In this document: positions 2,752 to 21,025 of the stretch, in pieces | Layout: each line of letters starts with the position of its first letter | How positions within the stretch are numbered: position 1 is the stretch's first letter | Source: Ruegeria sp. ANG-S4 | GTDB lineage: Bacteria; Pseudomonadota; Alphaproteobacteria; Rhodobacterales; Rhodobacteraceae | Assembly (NCBI RefSeq): GCF_000814005.1 | Contig: NZ_JWLK01000006.1 | Coordinates: forward strand, 1 to 64,000 | Length of the DNA: 64,000 bases | Direction: 5' to 3' | The notes under the pieces: generated by a model | Told to the model about the DNA's origin: nothing | What the model saw: the letters and a program-made list of their open reading frames with translations, nothing else | Database searches by the model: none | Translations under genes and position numbers: made by a program

Positions 2752-4932
2752 CTACGTTTCCAGCGCGGCGGCGACGCGATCCGGAGTAAACGGCATGTGG
2801 CGCAGGCGCTTGCCTTGCGCGGCATAGAACGCGTTGGCAATAGCCGCGGGCACCATCGGAGTGCCAACCTCGCCAACACCAACAGGCGGTGCATCGACCT
2901 CTGCGACGTAGATCTCGATTTCCGGCATTTGCGACGCCCGCGTGATCTCGTAGTCCCAGAAGTTGCTTTGCACCACTTCGCCGTTTTCGATATCGATCTT
3001 TTCAGAAAGAGCCATCGAGATACCGAACACGATACCACCTTCGATCTGATTGAGCGCGTTGTCTGGCGTGACGATCAGTCCCGCGTCGATTGCGGCCCAG
3101 AAGTTGGTGATCTGGATCTCTCCACTGTCCGCGTCAACTTCAACTTCCGCTACACCTGCGGCCATGGAGGAGCTGTAGCCAGCGAAAGAAAGCCCTAAGT
3201 TTCGATTTCTGCGATTTTGCCAATCCGACATCTCGGCCACCTTCTCAAGCAAGTGCCGCCCGCGTGGGTTTTCTGAAACAAGATCTAGCCGGAACTCCAG
3301 AGGATCCCGGCCGGCTTGCTCTGCCAGTTCGTCCATAAAGCACTCTGCCGAAAAGGCCGTGTAGGACGCACCAATACCGCGATAGGGGGCAAGGCGGGCG
3401 TGCCGGTCCATGATCAGGTGATCGGCGCGGAAATCCTTGATCCCATAGAATTTGCTCTCTGCACCCCGCATCGAGATCACGTCGTTGGGGTTCACCGCGT
3501 CCCAACGCAGCGGGTTGAAAAAACCAATGACCGTTGGTGTCGCGACCTTGTGATACCACCCATCGAGCTTTCCTTCCGCTGTCAGACCGGCCTCAAGCTT
3601 TTGTGCCGCAGCGGGGCGAAAGGTCCCCTGCTTCACGTCGTCTTCACGCGGCCAGATCACTTTGACAGGGCGTCCAATAGCTTTCGAGCACAGCACTGCA
3701 TCGCGCACATAGTTCTGCATCAGGGCTGTGCGTCGACCAAATCCTCCGCCCATTGTCATCATGTTCAGTCGAACGCTTTCGACAGGGATGCCCAACACCT
3801 CCGACACGGTGCGCGCGGTCCACGACTGCGTTTGCGTGCCTGCCCAAACCTCAGCACCTTGCCCGTCCGCATCAACGTCAGCAACAGCCGCCATCGGCTC
3901 AATCTGAGCGTGGTAGGCATAGTCCGACAGATAGACCTGCGAAAACTGACTGTCAGCATTGGCAATAGCTGCTGGGGCGTCGCCTTTCTCGGCCCAGGTT
4001 GCCCCCGATGCTTCAGTGGCGCTGACAGCGGCGGCGTATTCGGCCAGCGTCTCTTCGCTGTTTGAGGTTCGGAAAGGTGAGGTGGTGGACCATTCGACCT
4101 CAAGCAAACCCCGTGCCCCCAAGGCAGACCAAAGGCTTTCCGCGACGACGGCGACACCGTCCGGTACTGCCACGACATCGATGACGCCGGGTACCTCGCG
4201 TGCGGAAGCGTCGTCGATGGAAAGCGGAACTTCGTCCTCGACTGGTGCACGTAGAACGGCGGCATAGGCCATATTAGGCACATCCACATCGATCGCATAT
4301 TCGGCCTGACCTGTGCTTTTCGCCGGAACGTCGCGACGCGGCAAATCTTGCCCGATGATCCGAAACGCGGATGGGTCTTTCAGTGGCACGGTCTCAGCGT
4401 CTGGTACCGTCACATCCCTTGAACCGAACGCTGCCAGTTCACCATAGGCAGCCTGTTGGCCATCGGGTCCTAAAACAACACTGGGTTTGGTCCTAAGGCT
4501 GGCTTTGTCCACACCCCATTCGCGCGCTGCGATTTGCAGCAACACGTCGCGCGCCTGAGCACCGGCCTTGCGCATCGGATCAAAATAGAACTGTGTTCCG
4601 GTGCTACCCGCCGTATACAAAACACCGCCAAACAGCTTGTTTCCAAAGCGTCGATCATCAGCGTTTAGCTGTTTGATCTCAACGTCATTCCAAGCAGCGT
4701 CCAGTTCCTCGGCCAGAATCTGCGGCAAGGTAGAATAGCTGCTTTGGCCCATCTCTGTGGACGGATGGACGATCTGAACGGTGCCATCAGCCCGGATCGT
4801 CAACCAGTGATTGACATCCAGTGTGCCGACCGCTGCTTCGGACCGGACGGATGAGATGCCGCCCGCACCGATGAAAAACGTCAGTCCTGCAGCGCCTTGT
4901 AGAAACCCACGGCGGTTCATGGTTATGGTCAT
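2752..4932 (-). CDS. Molybdopterin-binding subunit of an IorB-type aldehyde/isoquinoline oxidoreductase
   Basis: 726 residues. A twin-arginine signal opens the protein (MNRRGFLQGAAG), so the folded molybdoenzyme should be exported to the periplasm. The body matches the xanthine-oxidase family in its single-chain IorB form: GGGFGRR near residue 395, YRGIGASYTAFSAECFMDEL for the cofactor pocket, and GVGEVGTP near the C-terminus, whose Glu is the catalytic base in this family. The substrate is not predictable; relatives oxidise aldehydes or N-heterocycles. The start is well supported by AAGGAGG upstream. It begins one base after the stop of the [2Fe-2S] subunit, so the two are co-translated. The cytochrome c subunit that often completes such enzymes is not encoded nearby. 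Confidence 0.9.
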   Translation of the reverse strand: MTITMNRRGFLQGAAGLTFFIGAGGISSVRSEAAVGTLDVNHWLTIRADGTVQIVHPSTEMGQSSYSTLPQILAEELDAAWNDVEIKQLNADDRRFGNKLFGGVLYTAGSTGTQFYFDPMRKAGAQARDVLLQIAAREWGVDKASLRTKPSVVLGPDGQQAAYGELAAFGSRDVTVPDAETVPLKDPSAFRIIGQDLPRRDVPAKSTGQAEYAIDVDVPNMAYAAVLRAPVEDEVPLSIDDASAREVPGVIDVVAVPDGVAVVAESLWSALGARGLLEVEWSTTSPFRTSNSEETLAEYAAAVSATEASGATWAEKGDAPAAIANADSQFSQVYLSDYAYHAQIEPMAAVADVDADGQGAEVWAGTQTQSWTARTVSEVLGIPVESVRLNMMTMGGGFGRRTALMQNYVRDAVLCSKAIGRPVKVIWPREDDVKQGTFRPAAAQKLEAGLTAEGKLDGWYHKVATPTVIGFFNPLRWDAVNPNDVISMRGAESKFYGIKDFRADHLIMDRHARLAPYRGIGASYTAFSAECFMDELAEQAGRDPLEFRLDLVSENPRGRHLLEKVAEMSDWQNRRNRNLGLSFAGYSSSMAAGVAEVEVDADSGEIQITNFWAAIDAGLIVTPDNALNQIEGGIVFGISMALSEKIDIENGEVVQSNFWDYEITRASQMPEIEIYVAEVDAPPVGVGEVGTPMVPAAIANAFYAAQGKRLRHMPFTPDRVAAALET

Positions 4933-4933
4933 T

Positions 4934-5386
4934 TCAAACCTCCTTGGCTGCGCGTTCGATGGCTTTAAAGATTCGGTTATAGGTTCCGCAGCGACAGAGA
5001 TTCGCGCTCATCTCATCGACAATTTCCTGTCGTGTCGGAGATGGATTGTCCGCCAAAAGTGCCGCCGCGCGCATGATCTGACCCGACTGGCAATAGCCGC
5101 ATTGTGCAACCTGCTCTTCGATCCAGGCCCTCTGAACAGGATGCGAGCCGTCTTCGGACAATCCTTCGATCGTCGTGACTTGTGCATCCTCCACGTCGCT
5201 AACCGACATCTGACACGCGAAGCTCGCCACACCATCCACATGCACTGTACAGGCCCCACACATGGCAGCACCGCATCCGTATTTCGTACCTTTGAGTTTG
5301 AGCGTATCTCGAAGGACCAGCAGCAACATTTCGTCAGGGGGGTTATCAACCTCTACGGGTCGGCCGTTCAATTCGAATTTGATCAT
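4934..5386 (-). CDS. [2Fe-2S] subunit of the IorA-type molybdenum oxidoreductase
   Basis: 150 residues, the usual size for an isolated iron-sulfur subunit of the xanthine-oxidase family. The N-terminal plant-ferredoxin cluster motif is GCGAAMCGACTVHVDG with a further Cys at ASFACQ. The C-terminal cluster has CGYCQSGQI and NLCRCGTYNRI. All expected cluster ligands are present. It relays electrons from the molybdenum site of the partner encoded immediately downstream. It has no signal peptide of its own, so it is expected to be carried across the membrane with the Tat-bearing large subunit. A ribosome site AAGGAC precedes the ATG. The adaptor gene ends 58 bp upstream, so it probably belongs to the same transcript. 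Confidence 0.92.
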   Translation of the reverse strand: MIKFELNGRPVEVDNPPDEMLLLVLRDTLKLKGTKYGCGAAMCGACTVHVDGVASFACQMSVSDVEDAQVTTIEGLSEDGSHPVQRAWIEEQVAQCGYCQSGQIMRAAALLADNPSPTRQEIVDEMSANLCRCGTYNRIFKAIERAAKEV

Positions 5387-5444
5387 TTGGAACAGTCCTT
5401 GTGATGCCTGATGTTGACAGATTCTTGTGAAGTGGAATTCGTCG

Positions 5445-6347
5445 TCATGGCCTGACCATGGAGTGGTCTTGGTCAGCGCCGGTAACTGGGTAGATCATTG
5501 GCGTGACACGAACTTTCATTCCCGGTCGCAATGTAAGTTCGGAGTTTTCCAGATGTGCCCAGACACGTATTGTGCCGCTGTTTTCATCGAACCAAACCGC
5601 CGATCCGGTGAGCACAATTGCATCCTGCAGAGCCTGACCGATCTCCGTCTCAACACGAAACCGGCCGGAATTTGATAGCTCCTCTGAGTGCGTTTTGCTC
5701 GTGTTCAACCCAGAAACCCAATGGGCATAGGGAAGCTCGAAAGCAACGCGCAGGCTGTTCAGATTTACGAGTTGAAACAGGGGCGGGTCGCCCGAATTGA
5801 ACTCAACCAGCGAACCCGGTCCAACACGCGGGTCTTCAACATGTCCTGAGATCGGCGCACGTATGAGCGTGTCGTTATAGTTCGTTTGTGCGATCTCCAA
5901 CTCGGTTTCCGCCAAGGCCCTTGCGGCCTTAGCCAAAGCCAGATTGGTTTCAGCGTCCAACAAGGCAACCTCTGTTGCGGCTCCACGCGTTGAGAGTTGG
6001 GCTGCGCGATCCAGCTTGTCTTGGGCTTGAAGCAACAGAGCCTCGGCTTTGGCCAACTCTGCACTCGCGGCATCGACCGCCAGTTTCTCCAGATCGTTTC
6101 GAAGCTGCAGCAATGGCGTGCCCGCTTCGACATAGTCGCCTTGCTCAACCAGAACTTCTTCGACAATGCCTTCAGCACGGCTATAGACGTCCGATCGGTC
6201 GACTGCTTCGATACGGCCTTCAAACTCCGCACCTCCTGCGGATGCCTGATCAGGTGCGTGGGCCCAGAACAGCGCCACAATGAGTGTGGCCGAAAGCACG
6301 GGTCGAGTGATGACCAAAATCGATAGCATCTCAAACACTCTCATCAT
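5445..6347 (-). CDS. RND-type periplasmic adaptor (membrane fusion protein)
   Basis: 300 residues. After a signal/anchor segment (residues about 8-38) comes a barrel-sandwich lipoyl half (VYSRAEGIVEEVLVEQGDYV), a helical hairpin rich in Ala, Leu and Glu (about 90-155), the second lipoyl half (LIRAPISGHVEDPRVGPGSL) and a beta-barrel (VRVTPMIYPV near the end). This is the HlyD/AcrA adaptor plan, somewhat short. Its start codon overlaps the stop of the upstream MFS exporter (ATGA), so it is translationally coupled to that pump. No RND pump or outer-membrane factor lies in the window. An MFS partner for this kind of adaptor suggests a tripartite exporter, as in the EmrAB arrangement, but the identity of the export substrate is unknown. 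Confidence 0.8.
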   Translation of the reverse strand: MMRVFEMLSILVITRPVLSATLIVALFWAHAPDQASAGGAEFEGRIEAVDRSDVYSRAEGIVEEVLVEQGDYVEAGTPLLQLRNDLEKLAVDAASAELAKAEALLLQAQDKLDRAAQLSTRGAATEVALLDAETNLALAKAARALAETELEIAQTNYNDTLIRAPISGHVEDPRVGPGSLVEFNSGDPPLFQLVNLNSLRVAFELPYAHWVSGLNTSKTHSEELSNSGRFRVETEIGQALQDAIVLTGSAVWFDENSGTIRVWAHLENSELTLRPGMKVRVTPMIYPVTGADQDHSMVRP

Positions 6348-7954
6348 GGTGCGATCAGATGGCGAACGACCGGCCCGCTTTCACGGGTATCGAAGGCTGA
6401 GACGGTCCGTTGAAGATCTTGATCCTGTTGTGACACGCGCTCATGTTGGGCCAGATGTTCCTGCCAGGAAGAAACCATGAACGCTTCGACCCATAGCTCA
6501 GGCTCTTCTGCACTTTGGAAAACGCGCCAATCATAGGCTCCGTCGCGCCAGCGCTCGCCCGACCATTCCTTAATAGCGGACAGGAACGCAGCTTCGTCCT
6601 CGGGTCGAATGCGATACTCAACTTCGACCATGACAGGACCGCGGGACGCCAAGTCGTCCTCTTCCAAGGCAACCTGCGGCGCAGGCCAATGCATTGAAGG
6701 CGTCAGGTCCAGATCTTCGCCCTGACCAAGCTGGAACTTGCGTGTTAGAAGCAAGCCGACGATCAGGCCTCCAGCTGCGATCAGCAAGGTGATCGAAACA
6801 GATGTTGCCGTTGCCACCTGACCCCAGATCGCTGATCCAAACGCCATTGACCCGAAGAAGACCATCAGATTTACGGCCAACCCTCGGGCCCTGACCCAAT
6901 TGGGCAGCGCGGTCTGGGCCGAAACATTGAACGTGGTGAGAACAGCAATCCAGCTAAACCCACCCAACAGTGCGGCGATATAGGCCAGAGGAGGGGTTGT
7001 CGCCGTTGCGAGAATTGCCATGGCAACGGCAGTGCCGATGGTTCCGCCTGCTGCTGTGGTGCTTGCATCAAGCTTCGCGCGGAACTGCGGGAGGGTCAAA
7101 GCGCCCACAACAGCCCCAGCACCGATCAACGTCAGCAACAATCCATACAGCGTCGCCCCGCCACCTTCGATCGTTCGGACGACCAACGGCAGCAGAGCCC
7201 AATAGGCAGAGGCAAAGATGAAGAAGGCAAAGGATCGGATCAAAGTTGCCTTGAGCGGGCCGTTATGTGCGACGTGCCGCATGCCGGTCATCATTGCGTT
7301 GAAAACGGGCTGAGATGTCTTCGATACAGCACTTTCGTGTTTCCAAAACAACAGAGCGCCAATGATCACGAGATAGCTGACCGCGTTGACTGCAAATGGC
7401 GCCGCCAAGCTGACCGATGCAATCAAAACGCCCGCCAAGGCAGGACCGATCGCGCGGCTGATGTTGATGCCCATTGAATTCAACGCAATGGCTGGCTGCA
7501 ACGCATCACGCGGCACCAGAGTTGGCACGATCGCTTGCCAAGCAGGAGCCATGAAAGCCGTCCCAGTTCCGATGGCCAATGTGAACAGGATCAGCAGCGT
7601 AGGTGTTACCAGCTCAAGCTGAACCAGCACGGTTAGTACCGACACCAGTGCCAGAAGCACAACGTTCACTGTGATCAACAGCTTGCGTTTGTCCAATCGG
7701 TCCGCCAGCGTGCCAGCGTATAGTGCGAAGATGAACACTGGCAGGGTTGTTGCCGCCTGCACAAGTGAGACGACTGCCGGAGATGAGTTAAGCGTCGTCA
7801 TCAACCACCCAGCGCCCACATCATGCATCCACGTGCCGACGTTGGAGATCAGGGTCGCGACCCAAAGAAGCGCAAACGCCCGATGTTTGAACGGGGCCCA
7901 AGCCGAGTTTGATGCTGCAGGTGCAGGTTTCGCGATGCTACCACTGGATGACAT
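6344..7954 (-). CDS. MFS_3-type exporter with C-terminal monooxygenase-like domain
   Basis: 536 residues. About twelve membrane segments span residues 15-410, starting with FALLWVATLISNVGTWMHDV, a pattern typical of the EntS-like MFS_3 family. A soluble C-terminal domain of about 100 residues (VEVEYRIRPEDEAAFL to the end) resembles antibiotic-biosynthesis-monooxygenase ferredoxin-like folds, which are common in this family. The ATG at 7954 is chosen because GAGGAG lies just upstream and the longer frame to 8101 runs into the GNAT gene in another frame. It overlaps the GNAT gene by 17 bp and the downstream adaptor by 4 bp, so all three are coupled. Export of a small organic compound is likely; which one is not known. 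Confidence 0.85.
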   Translation of the reverse strand: MSSSGSIAKPAPAASNSAWAPFKHRAFALLWVATLISNVGTWMHDVGAGWLMTTLNSSPAVVSLVQAATTLPVFIFALYAGTLADRLDKRKLLITVNVVLLALVSVLTVLVQLELVTPTLLILFTLAIGTGTAFMAPAWQAIVPTLVPRDALQPAIALNSMGINISRAIGPALAGVLIASVSLAAPFAVNAVSYLVIIGALLFWKHESAVSKTSQPVFNAMMTGMRHVAHNGPLKATLIRSFAFFIFASAYWALLPLVVRTIEGGGATLYGLLLTLIGAGAVVGALTLPQFRAKLDASTTAAGGTIGTAVAMAILATATTPPLAYIAALLGGFSWIAVLTTFNVSAQTALPNWVRARGLAVNLMVFFGSMAFGSAIWGQVATATSVSITLLIAAGGLIVGLLLTRKFQLGQGEDLDLTPSMHWPAPQVALEEDDLASRGPVMVEVEYRIRPEDEAAFLSAIKEWSGERWRDGAYDWRVFQSAEEPELWVEAFMVSSWQEHLAQHERVSQQDQDLQRTVSAFDTRESGPVVRHLIAP

Positions 7955-8243
7955 CTGCCAACTCCTCGCGATTTCTTTCGGCGTAGGACCGCACAAACGG
8001 GCAAAGAGGCACAATGCGGAGACCCCTGTCGCGCGCGTCCGCCACAAGTTGCGCGGCCAAGGTCCGAGCCAAGCCGCGACCACGCAACTCTTCCGGGACA
8101 AACGTGTGGTCGGCGATAACGAGGCTGGGCGTGACTTTTGACAGCGTCAGTTCTGCCTCGCTCACGATCCCGGACACCGAAGCACCATACCGTGCTTTTG
8201 TATCGCTTTCGCTGTAAGTGATTTTTAGCTTTTGATCGTCCAA
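7938..8243 (-). CDS. Small GNAT-family N-acetyltransferase (YidJ/GTL3B type)
   Basis: 101 residues, matching the compact single-domain GNAT group. The acetyl-CoA binding motif is seen as FVPEELRGRGLARTLAAQLV (residues 48-67), followed by the conserved helix and IVPLCPFVRSYAERN, a C-terminal hallmark of this subgroup in which the Cys-Pro-Phe-Val stretch is typical. The acceptor is unknown; members act on small amines or thioesters or are uncharacterised. Its 3' end overlaps the MFS start by 17 bp, and its start follows the amidohydrolase stop by 27 bp, so it sits in the middle of the long minus-strand run. Confidence 0.85.
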   Translation of the reverse strand: MDDQKLKITYSESDTKARYGASVSGIVSEAELTLSKVTPSLVIADHTFVPEELRGRGLARTLAAQLVADARDRGLRIVPLCPFVRSYAERNREELADVIQW

Positions 8244-8270
8244 AACGGGAAATCTCCTGAGGTCTTATCG

Positions 8271-10004
8271 CTATTCAGCGGCAAGGCTGCCTTGGCTTTG
8301 CGTCGTAGCACCGGGCGCACCGAAAATTGGAACGGGTGACCAATCGGGAAGCTCTGGCAGTGGGGCAGGTGCATGCGCCGCAAAACGGGCCTTGGCATGT
8401 ACGATCTTGCCGCCCGTAAGTGTCAGGTCGGCCTCGATCTCGGTGATCTCATCCTCGGCAATCGAGAAATAATCCCGGTCGAGCACAGCGATATCCGCCC
8501 ATTGCCCCGCCTTGATCTGACCTTTCTTACCCGCTTCCCGGCTGAACCAAGCCCCGGCAGCGGTCCAATGACGCAGCGCGTCGTGCCGATCCAAACGGTT
8601 CGCCGCACTCCAGATGATGTCTCCGCCACGACCTTTGCCAGAAACGGCCCAGTGAATGGCCAACCACGGGTTATAGGACGACACCCGCGTCGCATCCGTG
8701 CCAGCAGCCAGAGGCACACCCGACGCCATCATCTTCTTGACCGGCATGACCTCTCGCAGGGCGTTTTCTCCATAGCGATCACGATAGGCTGTGGTCTGAA
8801 AAGCGATGCGGTTTTGATAGCTGATACCACCGCCCAGGCGCGCGACCCATTCCATGGTGGATTCTGAGATCGTCTCGCCGTGATCGAAAATCCAATTCAG
8901 CTCTTCCAGCCCTTTGTCACGGCCAACCTCCTCAATAAGGCTCAGCAACCGGTGGGCGCTTTCCTCATAGGTACAATGGAACCGGATCGGCCAGCGGTTT
9001 TCGAATAGAAATTCGAGTACCGGCCAGAGGTCTCCTTCCATCCTCTTGGGCAGATCGGGGCGCGGGTAGCTGAAATCTTCGAAATCATAGGCCGATGCGA
9101 CCAGCATCTCGCCCGCGCCCACGCATTTCAGGTAGTCGTTTCCTTCGTCTGGCTTGACGATGTCATTCCAGCGTTTGAAGTCGTCCAGTTCGAACATCGG
9201 GCGCTGAGCAAATAGCTGATAGCCTATACGTACGGTTTGCTCGCCGCGTTTGTTCAACTCGGTGATGACCCCGTAGTCGTCGGGATAGTTCAGGAACCCA
9301 CCCGCGCAATCCAAAGCCGAGGTCAATCCAAGACCATTCAGCGCCTTGAAATAGTGCTTGGTCGAGGTGACCTGCTGTTCGAGATCCAGCTTGGGGGCCA
9401 TGTCCAGAAGGGCGTAAAGCGGTTGCGCATTCGGGCGCGCCATTGCAAGACCTGTCGGGTTGCCCTGATCGTCCCGCTCTAGACGCCCTGAGACAAAGGG
9501 TTCGTAGAAATGTTTGTCGATGCCGATTGCGCGTAGGGCGGCTTTGTTCAACCAGGCCCGATCATAGAGGTGCAACACGTAGACAGGCACATCCGGCGCG
9601 ACCGCATTGATCTCATCAATCGTCGGCAAGCGTTTTTCAGCGAATTGATCAACGGACCAACCACCAACCACGCGGATCCATTGGCCAGCAGGAGTACGCT
9701 CTGCCTGAGCCTTCAGCATACGCAGACCGTCGGCAAGAGACGGAACGTGGTCCCAGCGCAGCTCCATAGCGAAGTTGTTGCCTTGTCGGATGATGTGCGT
9801 ATGGCTGTCGATCAGACCGGGGATCACACGCTGGCCGCCCAGATCAATGGTTTCGGTTTCGTGGCCCGCAAGCCCAAACATGTCCTTGTCAGTTCCAACA
9901 GCGGTGATCTGATCCCCTGAAATGGCCACAGCTGTCGCTTCTGGCGTGTCAGGATCCATTGTCGTGATCTTGCCGTTGAAGAGTATCTTGTCTGGGGCGG
10001 CCAT
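8271..10004 (-). CDS. YtcJ-like metal-dependent amidohydrolase
   Basis: 577 residues of the amidohydrolase superfamily. Seen in order: an N-terminal beta-sandwich (KILFNGKITTMDPD), the metal motif GLIDSHTHI with H-x-H, a TIM barrel with the later ligands around RFHCTYEESAHR and IFDHGETISE, an Asp in AGTDATRVSSYNP, and the closing sandwich strand (GQWADIAVLDRDYF). The length fits COG1574 enzymes, whose known members act on amides, cyclic imides or formamides. The true substrate is not inferable. The ATG at 10004 is used; the ATG nine bases earlier sits directly on the AAAGGA ribosome site. It follows the isochorismatase-family gene by 132 bp and is probably in the same operon. Confidence 0.87.
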   Translation of the reverse strand: MAAPDKILFNGKITTMDPDTPEATAVAISGDQITAVGTDKDMFGLAGHETETIDLGGQRVIPGLIDSHTHIIRQGNNFAMELRWDHVPSLADGLRMLKAQAERTPAGQWIRVVGGWSVDQFAEKRLPTIDEINAVAPDVPVYVLHLYDRAWLNKAALRAIGIDKHFYEPFVSGRLERDDQGNPTGLAMARPNAQPLYALLDMAPKLDLEQQVTSTKHYFKALNGLGLTSALDCAGGFLNYPDDYGVITELNKRGEQTVRIGYQLFAQRPMFELDDFKRWNDIVKPDEGNDYLKCVGAGEMLVASAYDFEDFSYPRPDLPKRMEGDLWPVLEFLFENRWPIRFHCTYEESAHRLLSLIEEVGRDKGLEELNWIFDHGETISESTMEWVARLGGGISYQNRIAFQTTAYRDRYGENALREVMPVKKMMASGVPLAAGTDATRVSSYNPWLAIHWAVSGKGRGGDIIWSAANRLDRHDALRHWTAAGAWFSREAGKKGQIKAGQWADIAVLDRDYFSIAEDEITEIEADLTLTGGKIVHAKARFAAHAPAPLPELPDWSPVPIFGAPGATTQSQGSLAAE

Positions 10005-17500: not shown

Positions 17501-18571
17501 ATGAAGCGGCGTAGTATGATGGTCGGCAGCTGGGCACTGGGAACGATGGGTTTGCTGGGGATGAAAAGGGCAACGGCCAATGCTGGGTTCTACGTACCGC
17601 CGGAAGAAGATCCTCACCAGCTTACTTTCATGCAGTGGCCCGTAAACCGCGGGGTTCATCCTGACCCTGTCTTCCTCGATATGGCTCAGCAGACGATTGC
17701 CGATATCGCGAATTCAATCAGCGAGTTCGAGCCGGTGACGATGCTCTGTGCGGCTGAGGATCACGCAGGGGCACAGACAAAGCTGTCGGAAAAAGTAGAG
17801 TTGTGGGACATCCCCACGGAAGATCTCTGGTGCCGCGACGCAGGACCGATCTTTGTGGTAGACGGCGCTGGCGGTCTTGCCATCAGCCATGTCCAGTTCA
17901 ATGGCTGGGGGGAAAAACAAGTGAATGCACGCGATAGCCTGATTGCTGAGCATGTTGCCGAACGTCTGGGGCTGCAGCTCTTGCCAACCGGATTATGCGG
18001 AGAAGCGGGGGGCGTGGAGCAGGACGGGCATGGTCTGTTGATTGCACATGAAAGCAGCTGGGTGAACGACAACCGAAATCCCGGCCTAAGCCGCGACGAG
18101 ATCGAACGCCGGTTGCTGACCGCCTACGGCGCGGACCGGATGATCTGGTCGCCTGGTGTCTGGGGCGAAGACATCACCGATTATCACATTGACAGTCTTG
18201 CGCGGTTTACTGGTCCGGGAAGTGTACTGATAAATCTACCGGATGACCCCGATATGGAAGACCCGTTCCATTTCGCTGCCGTTGAGACACTTGATGTGCT
18301 GGTTGCAAACGATTTGGACGTTGAGGTCATTCCTGAACCGGTGATCCGCCGCGTAAAAAGCATCGAATTCGTAACCTCCTATGCAAACTACTATGTCTGT
18401 AATGGGGCGGTGATTGCCGCCGAATTTGGAGACCGAGAAACCGACGAGATCGCGCGAGAAGCTCTTGCGCGACGCTATCCGAGGCGGGAGATCGTAGCTT
18501 TGAATGTTGACCCATTGGGTGGGATGGGTGGCGGTATCCATTGCGCAACCCAGCAGATGCCTGCAGTATGA
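17501..18571 (+). CDS. Exported agmatine deiminase / peptidyl-arginine deiminase family protein
   Basis: 356 residues. The guanidine-modifying fold is recognised by DLWCRDAGPIFVVD near residue 108, VWGEDITDYHIDSLARF around 230 and the C-terminal catalytic Cys in GGMGGGIHCATQQMP (about 350). The sequence is complete. Unlike the usual cytoplasmic agmatine deiminase (AguA), the first 28 residues form an export signal: MKRRSMMVGSWALGTMGLLG with a paired Arg, then a cleavage-like ATANA. This suggests Tat or Sec export. The substrate could be agmatine or another guanidine compound outside the cytoplasm. No aguB or polyamine gene is next to it; the next operon is convergent and also secreted. Confidence 0.82.
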   Translation: MKRRSMMVGSWALGTMGLLGMKRATANAGFYVPPEEDPHQLTFMQWPVNRGVHPDPVFLDMAQQTIADIANSISEFEPVTMLCAAEDHAGAQTKLSEKVELWDIPTEDLWCRDAGPIFVVDGAGGLAISHVQFNGWGEKQVNARDSLIAEHVAERLGLQLLPTGLCGEAGGVEQDGHGLLIAHESSWVNDNRNPGLSRDEIERRLLTAYGADRMIWSPGVWGEDITDYHIDSLARFTGPGSVLINLPDDPDMEDPFHFAAVETLDVLVANDLDVEVIPEPVIRRVKSIEFVTSYANYYVCNGAVIAAEFGDRETDEIAREALARRYPRREIVALNVDPLGGMGGGIHCATQQMPAV

Positions 18572-18723: not shown

Positions 18724-19848
18724 CTAAGGTTTGCTAGACAGCGTCACCAAGAACGAAATCAAGTCTGCAATCTCCTGCTCGGATAAACTCAATTTCGCGA
18801 GTATGTCTTCGCCATCAGCGTGCAACCGCTCAATGTCAATTTCGCTGTAATGTCGGATTACCGCTTCCAAGTCGATAAAGTTGCCGTTGTGCATATAAGG
18901 CGCGGTTTCGGCCACGCCCCGAAGGCTGGGTGTTCGAAACATTCCAAAGTCAGAATGGCTCCTTCGCACACCGCGAACTGCCCAAGCCCCTTGCTTATCT
19001 GGATCGTCGCTCCAATCCCCGTCCAGTGTAAATTCGCTTGATAGTAATATGTTCAATCCGCCGAACCGCCCTTCGTCTACTTCGGCTTCGTTCAGAAAAT
19101 ATGGTACGCCGGCGTCGTGGAACTCATTGTTGGAGAATCTTGGACCGTTGTGGCAAAACACACAATTGCCGCGTCCCAAGAACAACTGAAGACCTCGCTG
19201 AGCAGCTTCAGGGTAGTTCGCCGCTTCGACAAAATCGCCGCGTTCCAGCGCGTCTCGAAAACCGTCAAATTGTGTTGCTTCTGTGATTATAGTTTCCAGG
19301 AAGGCCGATAAAGCTTTGGCTGTGTTGACCAAAACCAATTCTGGGTCTTGCTTCTGGATTTCACCAAAAGTCTTTTCGAAATCATTAATATACGGGCTAT
19401 CAGAAATTGCCGCTTTCAGACTCTCTTTACTGTGCGCCATCTCTTCGTCTGCGATGATAGGGTGTAAACTGGCGGCCCAGAGGTTGTCACTCTTGCCGCC
19501 CCAGCCGTACCATCGAAGACCCGCAAGGTTTCTCAGAGATGGCGTGTTCCGATCAAGCAAAACCCGGCCGAGCGCGCGCGCTTCTGTCGTAGTGAATGCC
19601 TGTTCTGGATCATGGCAACTTGCGCAGGCAAATGCACCATCGACAGACAACAACGGATCGTTGAACAAAGCCGCGCCGAGCGCAATCGCACTGGCATCGT
19701 TTGAAACCCTGTTACTTGGATCCGGCTGCAAAGATGGTGGCCACGGTCCGAAGGACAGCGTTTGCTCAATTTCGTCTTCAGACAACAAAACTTCTGCATT
19801 CGCGGCACTTGCCAAGACCACCAACGCGACTGACACCCAAAGCCTCAT
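18724..19848 (-). CDS. Di-haem cytochrome c peroxidase / MauG-family protein
   Basis: 374 residues. A Sec signal peptide (MRLWVSVALVVLASAANA) leads to two CxxCH haem c sites: FACASCHDPEQAF near residue 76 and RGNCVFCHNGPRFSNNEFHD near 228. The C-terminal MFRTPSLRGVAETAPYMHNG contains the Met/His region characteristic of bacterial di-haem peroxidases and MauG. The family either reduces hydrogen peroxide or, as MauG and MbnH do, oxidises a residue in a partner protein. It is the last gene of a three-gene operon whose start overlaps the preceding YtkA-like gene by 4 bp. A periplasmic location is expected, and haem attachment needs the Ccm system encoded elsewhere. Confidence 0.88.
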   Translation of the reverse strand: MRLWVSVALVVLASAANAEVLLSEDEIEQTLSFGPWPPSLQPDPSNRVSNDASAIALGAALFNDPLLSVDGAFACASCHDPEQAFTTTEARALGRVLLDRNTPSLRNLAGLRWYGWGGKSDNLWAASLHPIIADEEMAHSKESLKAAISDSPYINDFEKTFGEIQKQDPELVLVNTAKALSAFLETIITEATQFDGFRDALERGDFVEAANYPEAAQRGLQLFLGRGNCVFCHNGPRFSNNEFHDAGVPYFLNEAEVDEGRFGGLNILLSSEFTLDGDWSDDPDKQGAWAVRGVRRSHSDFGMFRTPSLRGVAETAPYMHNGNFIDLEAVIRHYSEIDIERLHADGEDILAKLSLSEQEIADLISFLVTLSSKP

Positions 19849-20222
19849 CTCAGCGCAATCTCACTCGTATAGGAAACCAATTTCCCATTGAAGTCGACGT
19901 CCACTTGCAGTTCCCACAAACCCGGCATGTGAAACAACAGGTCATCGATACGGAATTTTCCTTCGTCTAACGCCGTTACCTTGGGAGTGTAGTTTAACCC
20001 GTGTTGGTGAGCGGGCATGATTGCATCGACAAGTATTTCACTCACAGGAGTTTCATTGCAGACTTCGATTAGAATGGAAAACGGTTGGGCCAGTGGTACT
20101 ACTTCTGAAGAGACATAGACCTCAGGTGCGTCTTCGACATCTGAGGCCGCGCGCTGCCCCACCGCTTCACACGCAACAACCGGCCCTGATGAAATCAGAA
20201 ACCAAAAAGCCCAGCGAGTCAT
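19845..20222 (-). CDS. Secreted YtkA-like domain protein
   Basis: 125 residues. The N-terminus (MTRWAFWFLISSGPVVACEA) is a signal peptide, with a Cys at residue 18 that could be a lipoprotein site, though the preceding residues are only a weak lipobox. The remainder is an immunoglobulin-like beta-sandwich of the YtkA type: PLAQPFSILIEVC, MPAHQHGLNYTPKV near residue 70, and LLFHMPGLWELQVDV. The Met-x-x-His-x-His and FHM residues are reminiscent of copper-handling relatives (FixH/PCuAC-like), but metal binding is not proven. It is coupled by 4-bp overlaps on both sides, upstream to an amidohydrolase and downstream to a di-haem peroxidase. Confidence 0.72.
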   Translation of the reverse strand: MTRWAFWFLISSGPVVACEAVGQRAASDVEDAPEVYVSSEVVPLAQPFSILIEVCNETPVSEILVDAIMPAHQHGLNYTPKVTALDEGKFRIDDLLFHMPGLWELQVDVDFNGKLVSYTSEIALR

Positions 20223-21025
20223 TCTGATGCCAACATACGTTCCGCGTTTGCATACGCAATGTTGTCTGCAATCTGATCAGGAAGTTGGTTTAACCATTCA
20301 CGCGAATAATCGGCATGAGGGCCAACATAGTACCAACGCTCTGGGGCGAATGTATCCGTGCCAACCATAAAACGATCGGGATGTGCTTCAAACGCAGCCT
20401 TCCACCCAGGGTCGATGCGGCCCCGAGAAATCATATCTGAACGAAACGCTAGATCGGCCCAGAGTCTAGGATGGGTGTCCAGGGCGTCGACCACACTGTC
20501 AGGGTCGGTAAAGCCGGAATGGGCCCACAAAACGCGGGCTTCGGGCCATGTTTCGAAGATCAGGTCAACCGCCTCGCGATCGCCGTGGTGATGCAGAATT
20601 AAATTCCGTTCTTTTGCCAAAGCGATCATATGCTGGATGACCGGCGTTTTGATATCATTGCCATAGGCGTGAAATTCGCCGATGGCTTCGTATTCGTTCT
20701 TCGCCAGATTTGATTCCAGATAGTCGACGACAGTTTCGTCGTGCATCCAAGTGTTGATCTCTCCGCGGCGACGATAAGGACGAAGTGCCGGGACAACGAT
20801 ATCTGGCGCTGCGTCCAAGAGCAGTTGAGTACCATTGTCATCAGAGCTGGAAACAAGCGCCTTTCGCACGCCAGCATCCCGCAGAATCTTAGCGACTTGT
20901 TCAGGTGGGACAAGCTCCACAGCGTCGTGACTGTAGTGAATATGAGCATCAAAGATTGGCCGGTCATCTGCGGTCGCCGTACCGCTCAACATGATTAAGG
21001 TAAAGAGAGGGAGATATTTTAGCAC
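20219..21025 (-). CDS. Secreted TIM-barrel amidohydrolase (amidohydrolase_2 type)
   Basis: 268 residues starting at GTG, preceded by AGGAAG at good spacing. Residues 1-19 are a signal peptide ending in ATA. The metal motif IFDAHIHYSHD (H-x-H) follows at once. Further candidate ligands are ILHHHGDREA near residue 145, VLWAHSGFTDPD near 170 and the Asp in FMVGTDTFAPERW near 225. This is the COG2159 family, which includes decarboxylases and lactonases, but periplasmic members are unusual. It is the first gene of a translationally coupled trio with the YtkA-like protein and the di-haem peroxidase. The substrate is not known. Confidence 0.8.
   Translation of the reverse strand: MLKYLPLFTLIMLSGTATADDRPIFDAHIHYSHDAVELVPPEQVAKILRDAGVRKALVSSSDDNGTQLLLDAAPDIVVPALRPYRRRGEINTWMHDETVVDYLESNLAKNEYEAIGEFHAYGNDIKTPVIQHMIALAKERNLILHHHGDREAVDLIFETWPEARVLWAHSGFTDPDSVVDALDTHPRLWADLAFRSDMISRGRIDPGWKAAFEAHPDRFMVGTDTFAPERWYYVGPHADYSREWLNQLPDQIADNIAYANAERMLASE

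Follow-up and report, generated by a model that had tools for sequence, protein, structure and literature searches.

What could three overlapping genes for an amidohydrolase-type protein, a small YtkA-like protein and a di-haem peroxidase-type enzyme do together, and which of the products would act on which? The question is raised by a 64,000-nucleotide stretch of DNA from Ruegeria sp. ANG-S4 (hereafter, the window), in which these genes, here called AH, YTK and DHP, lie side by side.

Gene layout and linkage of the trio

Reading of the open reading frames confirmed three minus-strand genes in series. AH (20219..21025; GTG start, 268 aa) encodes a predicted exported TIM-barrel metal-dependent hydrolase (Amidohydro_2, 1.6e-8), YTK (19845..20222; 125 aa) a YtkA/CrdA-like, probable copper-binding protein, and DHP (18724..19848; 374 aa) a di-haem MauG/MbnH-like enzyme. 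The 4-bp overlaps that the first-pass annotation had described were borne out: on the minus strand, ATGA joins AH to YTK at 20219..20222 and YTK to DHP at 19845..19848, and it is common at both junctions across loci (31 of the 42 AH/YTK junctions scored and 34 of 48 YTK/DHP junctions). On visual inspection, the N termini carry stretches resembling signal peptides, so that all three products appear to be exported; for DHP this is also expected because its two c-haem motifs need the periplasm.

The three genes are grouped far beyond chance, given that they keep the same order in all 20 Ruegeria copies (window included) and that, at 53 loci found with YTK alone, DHP lies directly downstream of YTK in 48 and AH lies directly upstream or is fused in 46 (a count that takes in L045, L068, L076 and the fused L082). 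With a YTK profile, 29 of 385 Alphaproteobacteria matched, DHP being near YTK in 28 of these genomes and AH in 26; DHP was present in 14 of 15 YTK genomes in a separate count, and adjoins all five plasmid YTK matches. With a DHP profile searched against 398 Pseudomonadota, YTK was adjacent in each of the top 14 matches and in none of the next 16 loci. The families thus co-occur in both profile searches rather than being scattered. The proposal of a conserved three-gene system holds for this co-occurrence in both directions, but the near-obligate unit is the YTK–DHP pair, which AH joined only in one derived clade: 13 of the 14 Pseudomonadota pairs found with the DHP profile have no AH, which is therefore dispensable for the core function. 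A literature search of titles, abstracts and passages, covering few subscription journals, returned no description of a YtkA–DHP pair or of the trio.

The di-haem enzyme and its small partner

DHP matches Pfam CCP_MauG (7.4e-31) and carries two CXXCH haem-c motifs, C75-x-x-C78-H79 (19612..19626, minus strand) and C229-x-x-C232-H233 (19150..19164, minus strand), each invariant in 57/57 sequences. Its scores against the MauG profile TIGR03791 (137.7 bits; equivalog cut-off, 443.85) and the MbnH profile TIGR04039 (135.6 bits; cut-off, 362.85) lie below both cut-offs and are similar, so the protein was placed by a tree. There, the YTK-linked DHPs form their own clade (100/100 support; 25 rows, among them L086, in which DHP lies 1.8 kb from YTK on the opposite strand), apart from the MauG and MbnH references and from the one annotated CcP reference. 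DHP matches the aligned MauG positions Trp93, Glu113 and Tyr294. The counterpart of Trp93, Trp116, is kept in 37/37 YTK-linked DHPs and opens a short segment (19477..19503, minus strand) that ends at the clade-specific Trp124, which is found in 37/37 YTK-linked DHPs and in 0/38 others (L086 being in neither group). DHP thus shares two haem motifs and these aligned residues with the MauG of the mau operon, but differs from it in clade, in the extra Trp124 and in that no mau gene was seen beside it.

The counterpart of MauG Tyr294, which we take to be the distal ligand of a six-coordinate haem, is Tyr334 (18847..18849, minus strand). It is Tyr in 37/37 YTK-linked DHPs; among the 38 other DHPs the position holds Tyr in 35 and Met in three, including the CcP reference L117. 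DHP therefore has Tyr334 where a classical bacterial CcP has the Met ligand of its high-potential haem. Tyr–His haem ligation is also described in passages of PMC6405878. Both the Tyr at this position and the separate clade speak for DHP being of the MauG/MbnH kind rather than CcpA; the grouping with ordinary CcpA that would have counted against the first-pass proposal is not borne out. All 37 YTK-linked DHPs are without a Trp at the position of Trp199, a surface residue of MauG; we dropped this as an argument against partner oxidation because a Trp is likewise missing there from L107, a MauG of a mau operon.

YTK matches Pfam YtkA (PF13115) with an E value of 3.9e-5 (24.7 bits; gathering cut-off, 25.9), and 42 of the 46 aligned YTK members match it with E values of at most 0.01 (lowest, 3.7e-18). 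The predicted fold (pLDDT 91.3) is nearest to CrdA (Z 12.2 and rmsd 2.0 over 95 residues at 17% identity, against Z 9.9 and 9.2 for the next other rows), a copper protein the structure of which was solved with silver. A candidate metal loop, Met69-Pro-x-His72-x-His74 (20001..20018, minus strand), is accompanied by the segment Phe97-His98-Met99-Pro-Gly-x-Trp103 (19914..19934, minus strand); Met69, His72, His74, Met99 and Trp103 are kept in 46/46 members and in 27/27 further copies. Phe97 (46/46 but 13/27) and His98 (41/46 and 25/27) are not invariant, and Trp103 is the only aromatic residue kept throughout among the positions counted. Met69, His72, residue 76 and Met99 align with CrdA Met residues, and Trp103 aligns with a CrdA Trp. 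From its sequence, YTK is probably a copper-binding, CrdA-like beta-sandwich. To our knowledge, CrdA has no di-haem partner. YTK shares its fold and the position of its metal loop with CrdA of Helicobacter pylori (9ll4, 9ll2) and with the YtkA domains of CtaK/YcnJ, proteins to which passages of PMC9182242 and PMC13344008 ascribe copper trafficking roles; the CrdA loop, in contrast to that of YTK, is described in the former as a Met loop without His. A His/Met site is not necessarily redox-active.

The sole YTK-like protein found without DHP, a single case (G516), has none of the five candidate metal ligands where they would align (T, Q, L, L and A stand at positions 69, 72, 74, 98 and 99), although one loop His lies at aligned position 73; it retains C18, C55 and W103. 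Because Trp103 is kept in this homologue and aligns with the CrdA Trp, it looks structural, and we rejected it as a DHP-specific mark. The suggestion that the YtkA-like protein is a substrate or metal chaperone is accordingly sustained as far as YTK is a linked and probably copper-binding partner, and is weakened in its plain form, in which a MauG-type enzyme modifies a YtkA Trp.

The hydrolase and its genomic neighbourhood

The AlphaFold2 (AF2) model of AH (pLDDT 89.6) is closest to 3cjp, 3irs, TatD proteins and a PTE homologue (Z 21.8 to 19.7), and a 2,6-dihydroxybenzoate decarboxylase stands lower in the list (Z 17.9). As modelled, AH is a TatD/PTE-like metal hydrolase. Its first metal ligands lie in the motif D26-x-H28-x-H30 (20936..20950, minus strand), invariant in 29/29 aligned AH (two of them solo); further candidates are E117, H147, H169 and D224, and the amidohydrolase-superfamily set H28, H30, H147, H169 and D224 is invariant in the same 29/29 on the TIM barrel. 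The catalytic metal ligands are equally present in trio AH and in 12 solo AH. Residues of trio AH that are missing from 12/12 solo AH include His33, Asp34 and His237 (32 trio and 12 solo rows, after removal of 15 other Ruegeria rows and L065; L033 was unused), a difference expected anyway because a single bacterial family supplies 10 of the 12 solo AH. In-frame AH–YTK fusions occur at two divergent loci, L082 and L200. Searching the PDB with single AH or YTK sequences yielded nothing of use.

In Ruegeria, the gene immediately before the trio encodes an intradiol dioxygenase in 18 of the 20 loci, the window and L020 being without it, and at 15 of the 16 larger loci TRAP-transporter and FAA-hydrolase genes come before the dioxygenase; at the loci searched outside Ruegeria, tblastn placed the dioxygenase next to none of the trios. 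Among the clusters listed, no recurrent neighbour spans the whole set: these clusters reflect lineage synteny (Planctomycetota loci and one rhizobial-type group) and generic families, one clustering having used one Ruegeria locus for all Ruegeria with six other duplicates dropped. No copper-related recurrent cluster appeared among the neighbours clustered, mostly without a Pfam scan, and the planctomycete locus L087 is the only one at which a neighbour with an HMA domain was confirmed. The window neighbours scanned include no mau gene; a search for the methylamine dehydrogenase light chain (PF02975) drew a blank in this genome and in the control genomes alike, and so does not bear on the question. 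A footprint alignment meant to reveal any regulatory motif common to the regions ahead of AH was set aside; that comparison is uninformative on regulation because other Ruegeria have the coding end of the dioxygenase there.

A possible copper-and-peroxide module and its rivals

On the basis of gene order, co-occurrence, the DHP clade, conserved candidate ligands, predicted folds and the two AH–YTK fusions, we tentatively favour, at somewhat less than an even chance, a periplasmic copper-and-peroxide module in which DHP would act on the copper site of YTK and AH would work with YTK. YTK would bind copper through Met69/His72/His74 and Met99 and would be the standing protein partner of DHP, with which we infer direct contact. 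DHP, with putative His/Tyr haem ligation, would use H2O2 as the oxidant on the YTK metal site—either bound Cu(I) would be oxidised, so that YTK would serve as a cupredoxin-like electron donor, or the oxidation would fall on a side chain of the ligand loop or its surroundings. In the AH-containing clade, the exported metal-dependent hydrolase would work physically with YTK, and the product would be coupled to this hydrolase. The orphan YTK without the candidate ligands also speaks for the module, as far as a single case can; the absence of copper-related recurrent clusters among the neighbours clustered and the AH-less pairs speak against it. We know of no MauG-family system that joins haem oxidation to both a copper carrier and a hydrolase. 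A speculative and rather unlikely form of this proposal is a new machine of three parts: a MauG-like enzyme would use H2O2 to oxidise copper on a CrdA-like protein that is tethered to a hydrolase and switches or supplies it; if true, the AH–YTK fusions would be hydrolases with their own copper domain.

Protein partners are known for only a few enzymes of the MauG family, and YtkA/CrdA-like proteins, linked in both directions, would add a partner family, members of which could be found by the Trp124 signature. Solo AH, the ligand-less orphan YTK, AH-less pairs and AH–YTK fusions are natural controls; with the linkage and the signature, they make the action of a MauG-like enzyme on a copper protein directly testable on three small proteins.

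Known systems offer comparisons and suggest other readings. MbnP/MbnH (TIGR04052/TIGR04039) likewise encodes a MauG-like di-haem enzyme beside a partner protein, but here the partner is not MbnP, AH has no counterpart and the tree separates the MbnH references from DHP. YTK–DHP is best read, by this comparison, as working like MbnP/MbnH with an unrelated partner. MbnH is said to convert a Trp of MbnP to kynurenine, and DHP might in the same way convert Trp103 (for example, to kynurenine) and thereby complete the copper site. The pairing with a small, probably copper-binding protein and the invariance of Trp103 are consistent with this conversion; its persistence in the DHP-less orphan, its alignment with the CrdA Trp and the different partner family make it improbable. 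Genes annotated MbnP adjoin DHP in L110, L111 and L113, and passages of PMC3621798 describe the MbnP/MbnH pair as conserved far beyond one pathway. In Burkholderia, a MauG-like enzyme, BthA, is always near the exported PhosA according to passages of PMC6405878, the main text of which does not contain the word YtkA; that partner is also a metallohydrolase, but a putative purple acid phosphatase. The order of an enzyme, a copper chaperone and a MauG-like gene recurs in mtoX-SCO1/senC-mauG (passages of PMC5739008), so that AH might be a catalytic client served by YTK as copper chaperone and by DHP as oxidative maturase, as the fusions and the residues particular to trio AH would also suggest. We consider this unlikely: AH is a TIM-barrel hydrolase (Amidohydro_2) rather than SBP56, the chaperone family differs, the AH metal ligands are kept equally in solo AH, and DHP would not be mainly an AH maturase because nearly all of the Pseudomonadota pairs are without AH.

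There are two further readings. AH might hydrolyse and DHP oxidise a small molecule in a periplasmic aromatic-compound pathway, with YTK as an accessory, in keeping with the dioxygenase, TRAP-transporter and FAA-hydrolase genes of Ruegeria and with the decarboxylase among the AH folds; this is doubtful, given that the dioxygenase is missing beside the window trio, L020 and the trios searched outside Ruegeria, and that the travel of the DHP clade with YTK is left unexplained. That DHP is an ordinary CcP that only removes H2O2, with incidental neighbours, fits its membership of the CCP_MauG family and is very improbable against the Tyr that replaces Met at the haem ligand position, the clade apart from the CcP reference and the strict linkage to YTK.

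Gene organization and linkage of the trio

Three minus-strand genes of the window encode a putative exported amidohydrolase-type metal hydrolase (AH; 21025–20219, 268 aa; Pfam Amidohydro_2, 1.6e-8), a YtkA/CrdA-like protein (YTK; 20222–19845, 125 aa; Pfam YtkA, 3.9e-5, 24.7 bits versus a cut-off of 25.9) and a di-haem MauG/MbnH-like enzyme (DHP; 19848–18724, 374 aa; Pfam CCP_MauG, 7.4e-31). Each adjacent gene pair overlaps by the four bases ATGA, and visual inspection shows a signal-peptide-like stretch at the start of all three proteins. The host genome is 4.53 Mb. Convergent to the trio lies a PAD_porph (peptidyl-arginine/agmatine deiminase family) gene (17501–18571, plus strand), the product of which has an N-terminal Arg-Arg signal-like stretch and scores well under the agmatine deiminase cut-off.

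In a set of 101 related genomes, 20 of the 54 from the same genus (window counted) carry a trio-type DHP, as does one other genus of the family; AH occurs in exactly those 21 genomes and in two with a 39–40% AH homologue. The order AH–YTK–DHP was kept in 20/20 same-genus loci. A scan of 84,980 species, which ran on two YTK peptide patterns and therefore under-sampled distant types, yielded 53 loci from YTK alignment alone, about a third of them from Ruegeria. DHP directly follows YTK in 48; a contig edge lies just after YTK in four (L075, L077, L082 and L088), and in L086 DHP is 1.8 kb away on the opposite strand. AH is upstream of or fused to YTK in 46 and absent in six (L077, L086, L087, L089, L090 and L091), and one locus (L092) is cut. 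ATGA marks the YTK/DHP junction in 34/48 loci and the AH/YTK junction in 31/42 scored.

Of 398 Pseudomonadota genomes searched with the DHP profile (A4), 205 had a match of some kind; with at most four candidates scored per genome, 14 matches reached 371–552 bits, the next one down being at 240 bits. YTK adjoins DHP in all 14, and in 0/16 of the next-best loci (best 30 loci of many more matches). The YTK profile, run on an equal number of genomes, matched 15, and the 14 of these with DHP are those found with the DHP profile. In 385 Alphaproteobacteria (window included; the window genome and one exception, G516, are common to both YTK samples), 29 genomes matched, with DHP in 28 and AH in 26 within about 1.5 kb. 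In plasmid records, DHP adjoins YTK at 5/5 YTK matches. AH was found in 16 of 295 genomes of the family: the six high-scoring homologues (447–470 bits; four loci fetched, the window and L021, the YTK of the L094 contig being recorded as L073) all lie in YTK–DHP loci, and the ten low-scoring ones (251–272 bits) have neither YTK nor DHP in the range covered, which began about 3.5 kb ahead of AH and ended about 4.5 kb past it.

Predicted folds and conserved residues

The YTK model, which is of high confidence (mean pLDDT 91.3), is a seven-stranded beta-sandwich. Its two nearest solved chains are both CrdA, the copper resistance determinant of Helicobacter pylori, in silver-containing (9ll4; Z 12.2, rmsd 2.0, 95 residues) and apo (9ll2; Z 11.9) structures, with the following entries at Z 9.9 and 9.2. 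CrdA was also the sole match of the YTK profile among PDB sequences (E 0.0023); in that alignment M69, H72, residue 76 and M99 fall on CrdA Met residues and W103 on a CrdA Trp. The Met loop of CrdA has been proposed as a copper-binding site (PMC9182242). M69, H72, H74, M99 and W103 are kept in 46/46 aligned YTKs and 27/27 further ones. Phe97 (13/27 in the second set) and His98 (41/46 and 25/27) are not invariant; Cys18, Cys55, Asn77 and Tyr78 are, like His98, each present in 25/27 of the second set, and AH is present at 25 of those 27 loci, not necessarily the same 25. Twelve AH-less proteobacterial pairs have HGLPT as the YTK loop, with His at residue 98 in one; planctomycete pairs and L086 retain His98 (alignment A5).

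The sole YTK-profile match without DHP in the two genome samples, G516 (L176), serves as a natural control; the 13 kb of sequence holding its YTK-like gene contain no AH or DHP, and it is not among the genomes listed as matching A4. In its protein, the residues aligned with M69, H72, H74, H98 and M99 are T, Q, L, L and A, leaving one His (aligned position 73), whereas C18, C55, P70, F97, G101 and W103 are retained. Ligands changed and W103 kept where DHP is missing suggest, from this one case, that the candidate metal ligands, rather than Trp103, accompany DHP.

The AH model is a TIM barrel (pLDDT 89.6), nearest to 3cjp (Z 21.8), 3irs (20.8), TatD proteins (about 20) and a phosphotriesterase homologue (19.7). 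H28, H30, E117, H147, H169 and D224 are common to trio AH and solo AH (homologues without YTK and DHP beside them); S32-H33-D34 and H237 occur in trio AH alone, a contrast limited by the origin of 10 of the 12 solo AH in one family. AH and YTK form single in-frame proteins, lacking a YTK signal peptide and clearly different in sequence, in L082 (9104–10258) and L200 (658–1830). The DHP start overlaps the end of the fusion gene in L200; in L082 a signal-peptide-like start does so, and then the contig stops.

DHP Trp116, Glu136 and Tyr334 align with MauG Trp93, Glu113 and Tyr294; a classical peroxidase reference (L117) has Met at the position of Tyr334. A 100/100 branch divides the 42-protein tree: on one side are the 25 YTK-linked DHPs (L086 and 24 that adjoin YTK), and on the other are one MauG, three MbnH-type proteins, one CcP, further references and paralogues from Ruegeria; the 15 AH-linked DHPs form a 100/100 group. 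Trp124 is found in 37/37 YTK-linked DHPs versus 0/38 others. The profile scores of DHP are as close to MauG as to MbnH and fall far short of the equivalog cut-off of either.

Proposed mechanism and alternatives

Most likely, YTK is a putative copper-binding partner of DHP, which would oxidise the YTK metal site using H2O2, and AH would use YTK or be served by it. The linkage, the DHP clade, the predicted folds and the AH–YTK fusions are the observed part of this mechanism; we infer copper, haem ligation, H2O2, YTK–DHP contact and precisely which step takes place. Azurin and other small copper proteins supply electrons to bacterial peroxidases. MauG-like enzymes with neighbouring partners are known in MbnP/MbnH, MopE/SACCP and CorA/CorB (PMC3621798) and in BthA/PhosA (PMC6405878), and YtkA-domain proteins have been implicated in Bacillus copper-centre assembly (PMC13344008). 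The literature searched gave no account of a YtkA–DHP pair or of the trio.

AH could instead be the client of YTK/DHP, given that the trio order resembles mtoX–SCO1–mauG (PMC5739008), but AH is missing from 13/14 pairs found with the DHP profile, which makes this reading less probable. A small-molecule pathway would fit the intradiol dioxygenase gene adjoining the trio in 18/20 Ruegeria loci, yet no dioxygenase adjoins it at the window, L020 or the searched loci of other genera; we likewise consider it less likely than YTK acting as a partner of DHP.

Neighbouring genes at other loci

A set of FAA-hydrolase, TRAP and intradiol-dioxygenase genes stands directly 5' of the trio in 15/16 larger Ruegeria loci (L040–L053 and L056, about 3200–9176), and not in the window; nitroreductase- and OsmC-family genes are also there in the scanned L044. 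Two same-genus genomes (G019 and G039) have a second YTK–DHP pair (L022, 4107–8879, and L023). At L022, the one scanned, a membrane-dipeptidase (M19) gene lies upstream and an Amidohydro_1 gene downstream, placing another hydrolase by the pair. Two trio loci and one solo AH have a gene for a small exported protein close by (L094, 3002–3493; L095, 4030–5246; L105, 7148–8254), with weak, below-cut-off matches to intradiol dioxygenase (L094) or a carboxypeptidase regulatory domain (L095 and L105); a ferric-reductase-like membrane protein adjoins it in L095 and L105. On a Cereibacter plasmid (L036, 1–7784), genes for a Sel1-repeat protein, a large autotransporter and a GMC oxidoreductase precede the pair. 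The Planctomycetota pairs L087, L089 and L091 have a recurring NHL-repeat-type protein upstream and a recurring protein of about 750–870 aa downstream (no Pfam match in L087), and an HMA-domain gene was confirmed in L087.
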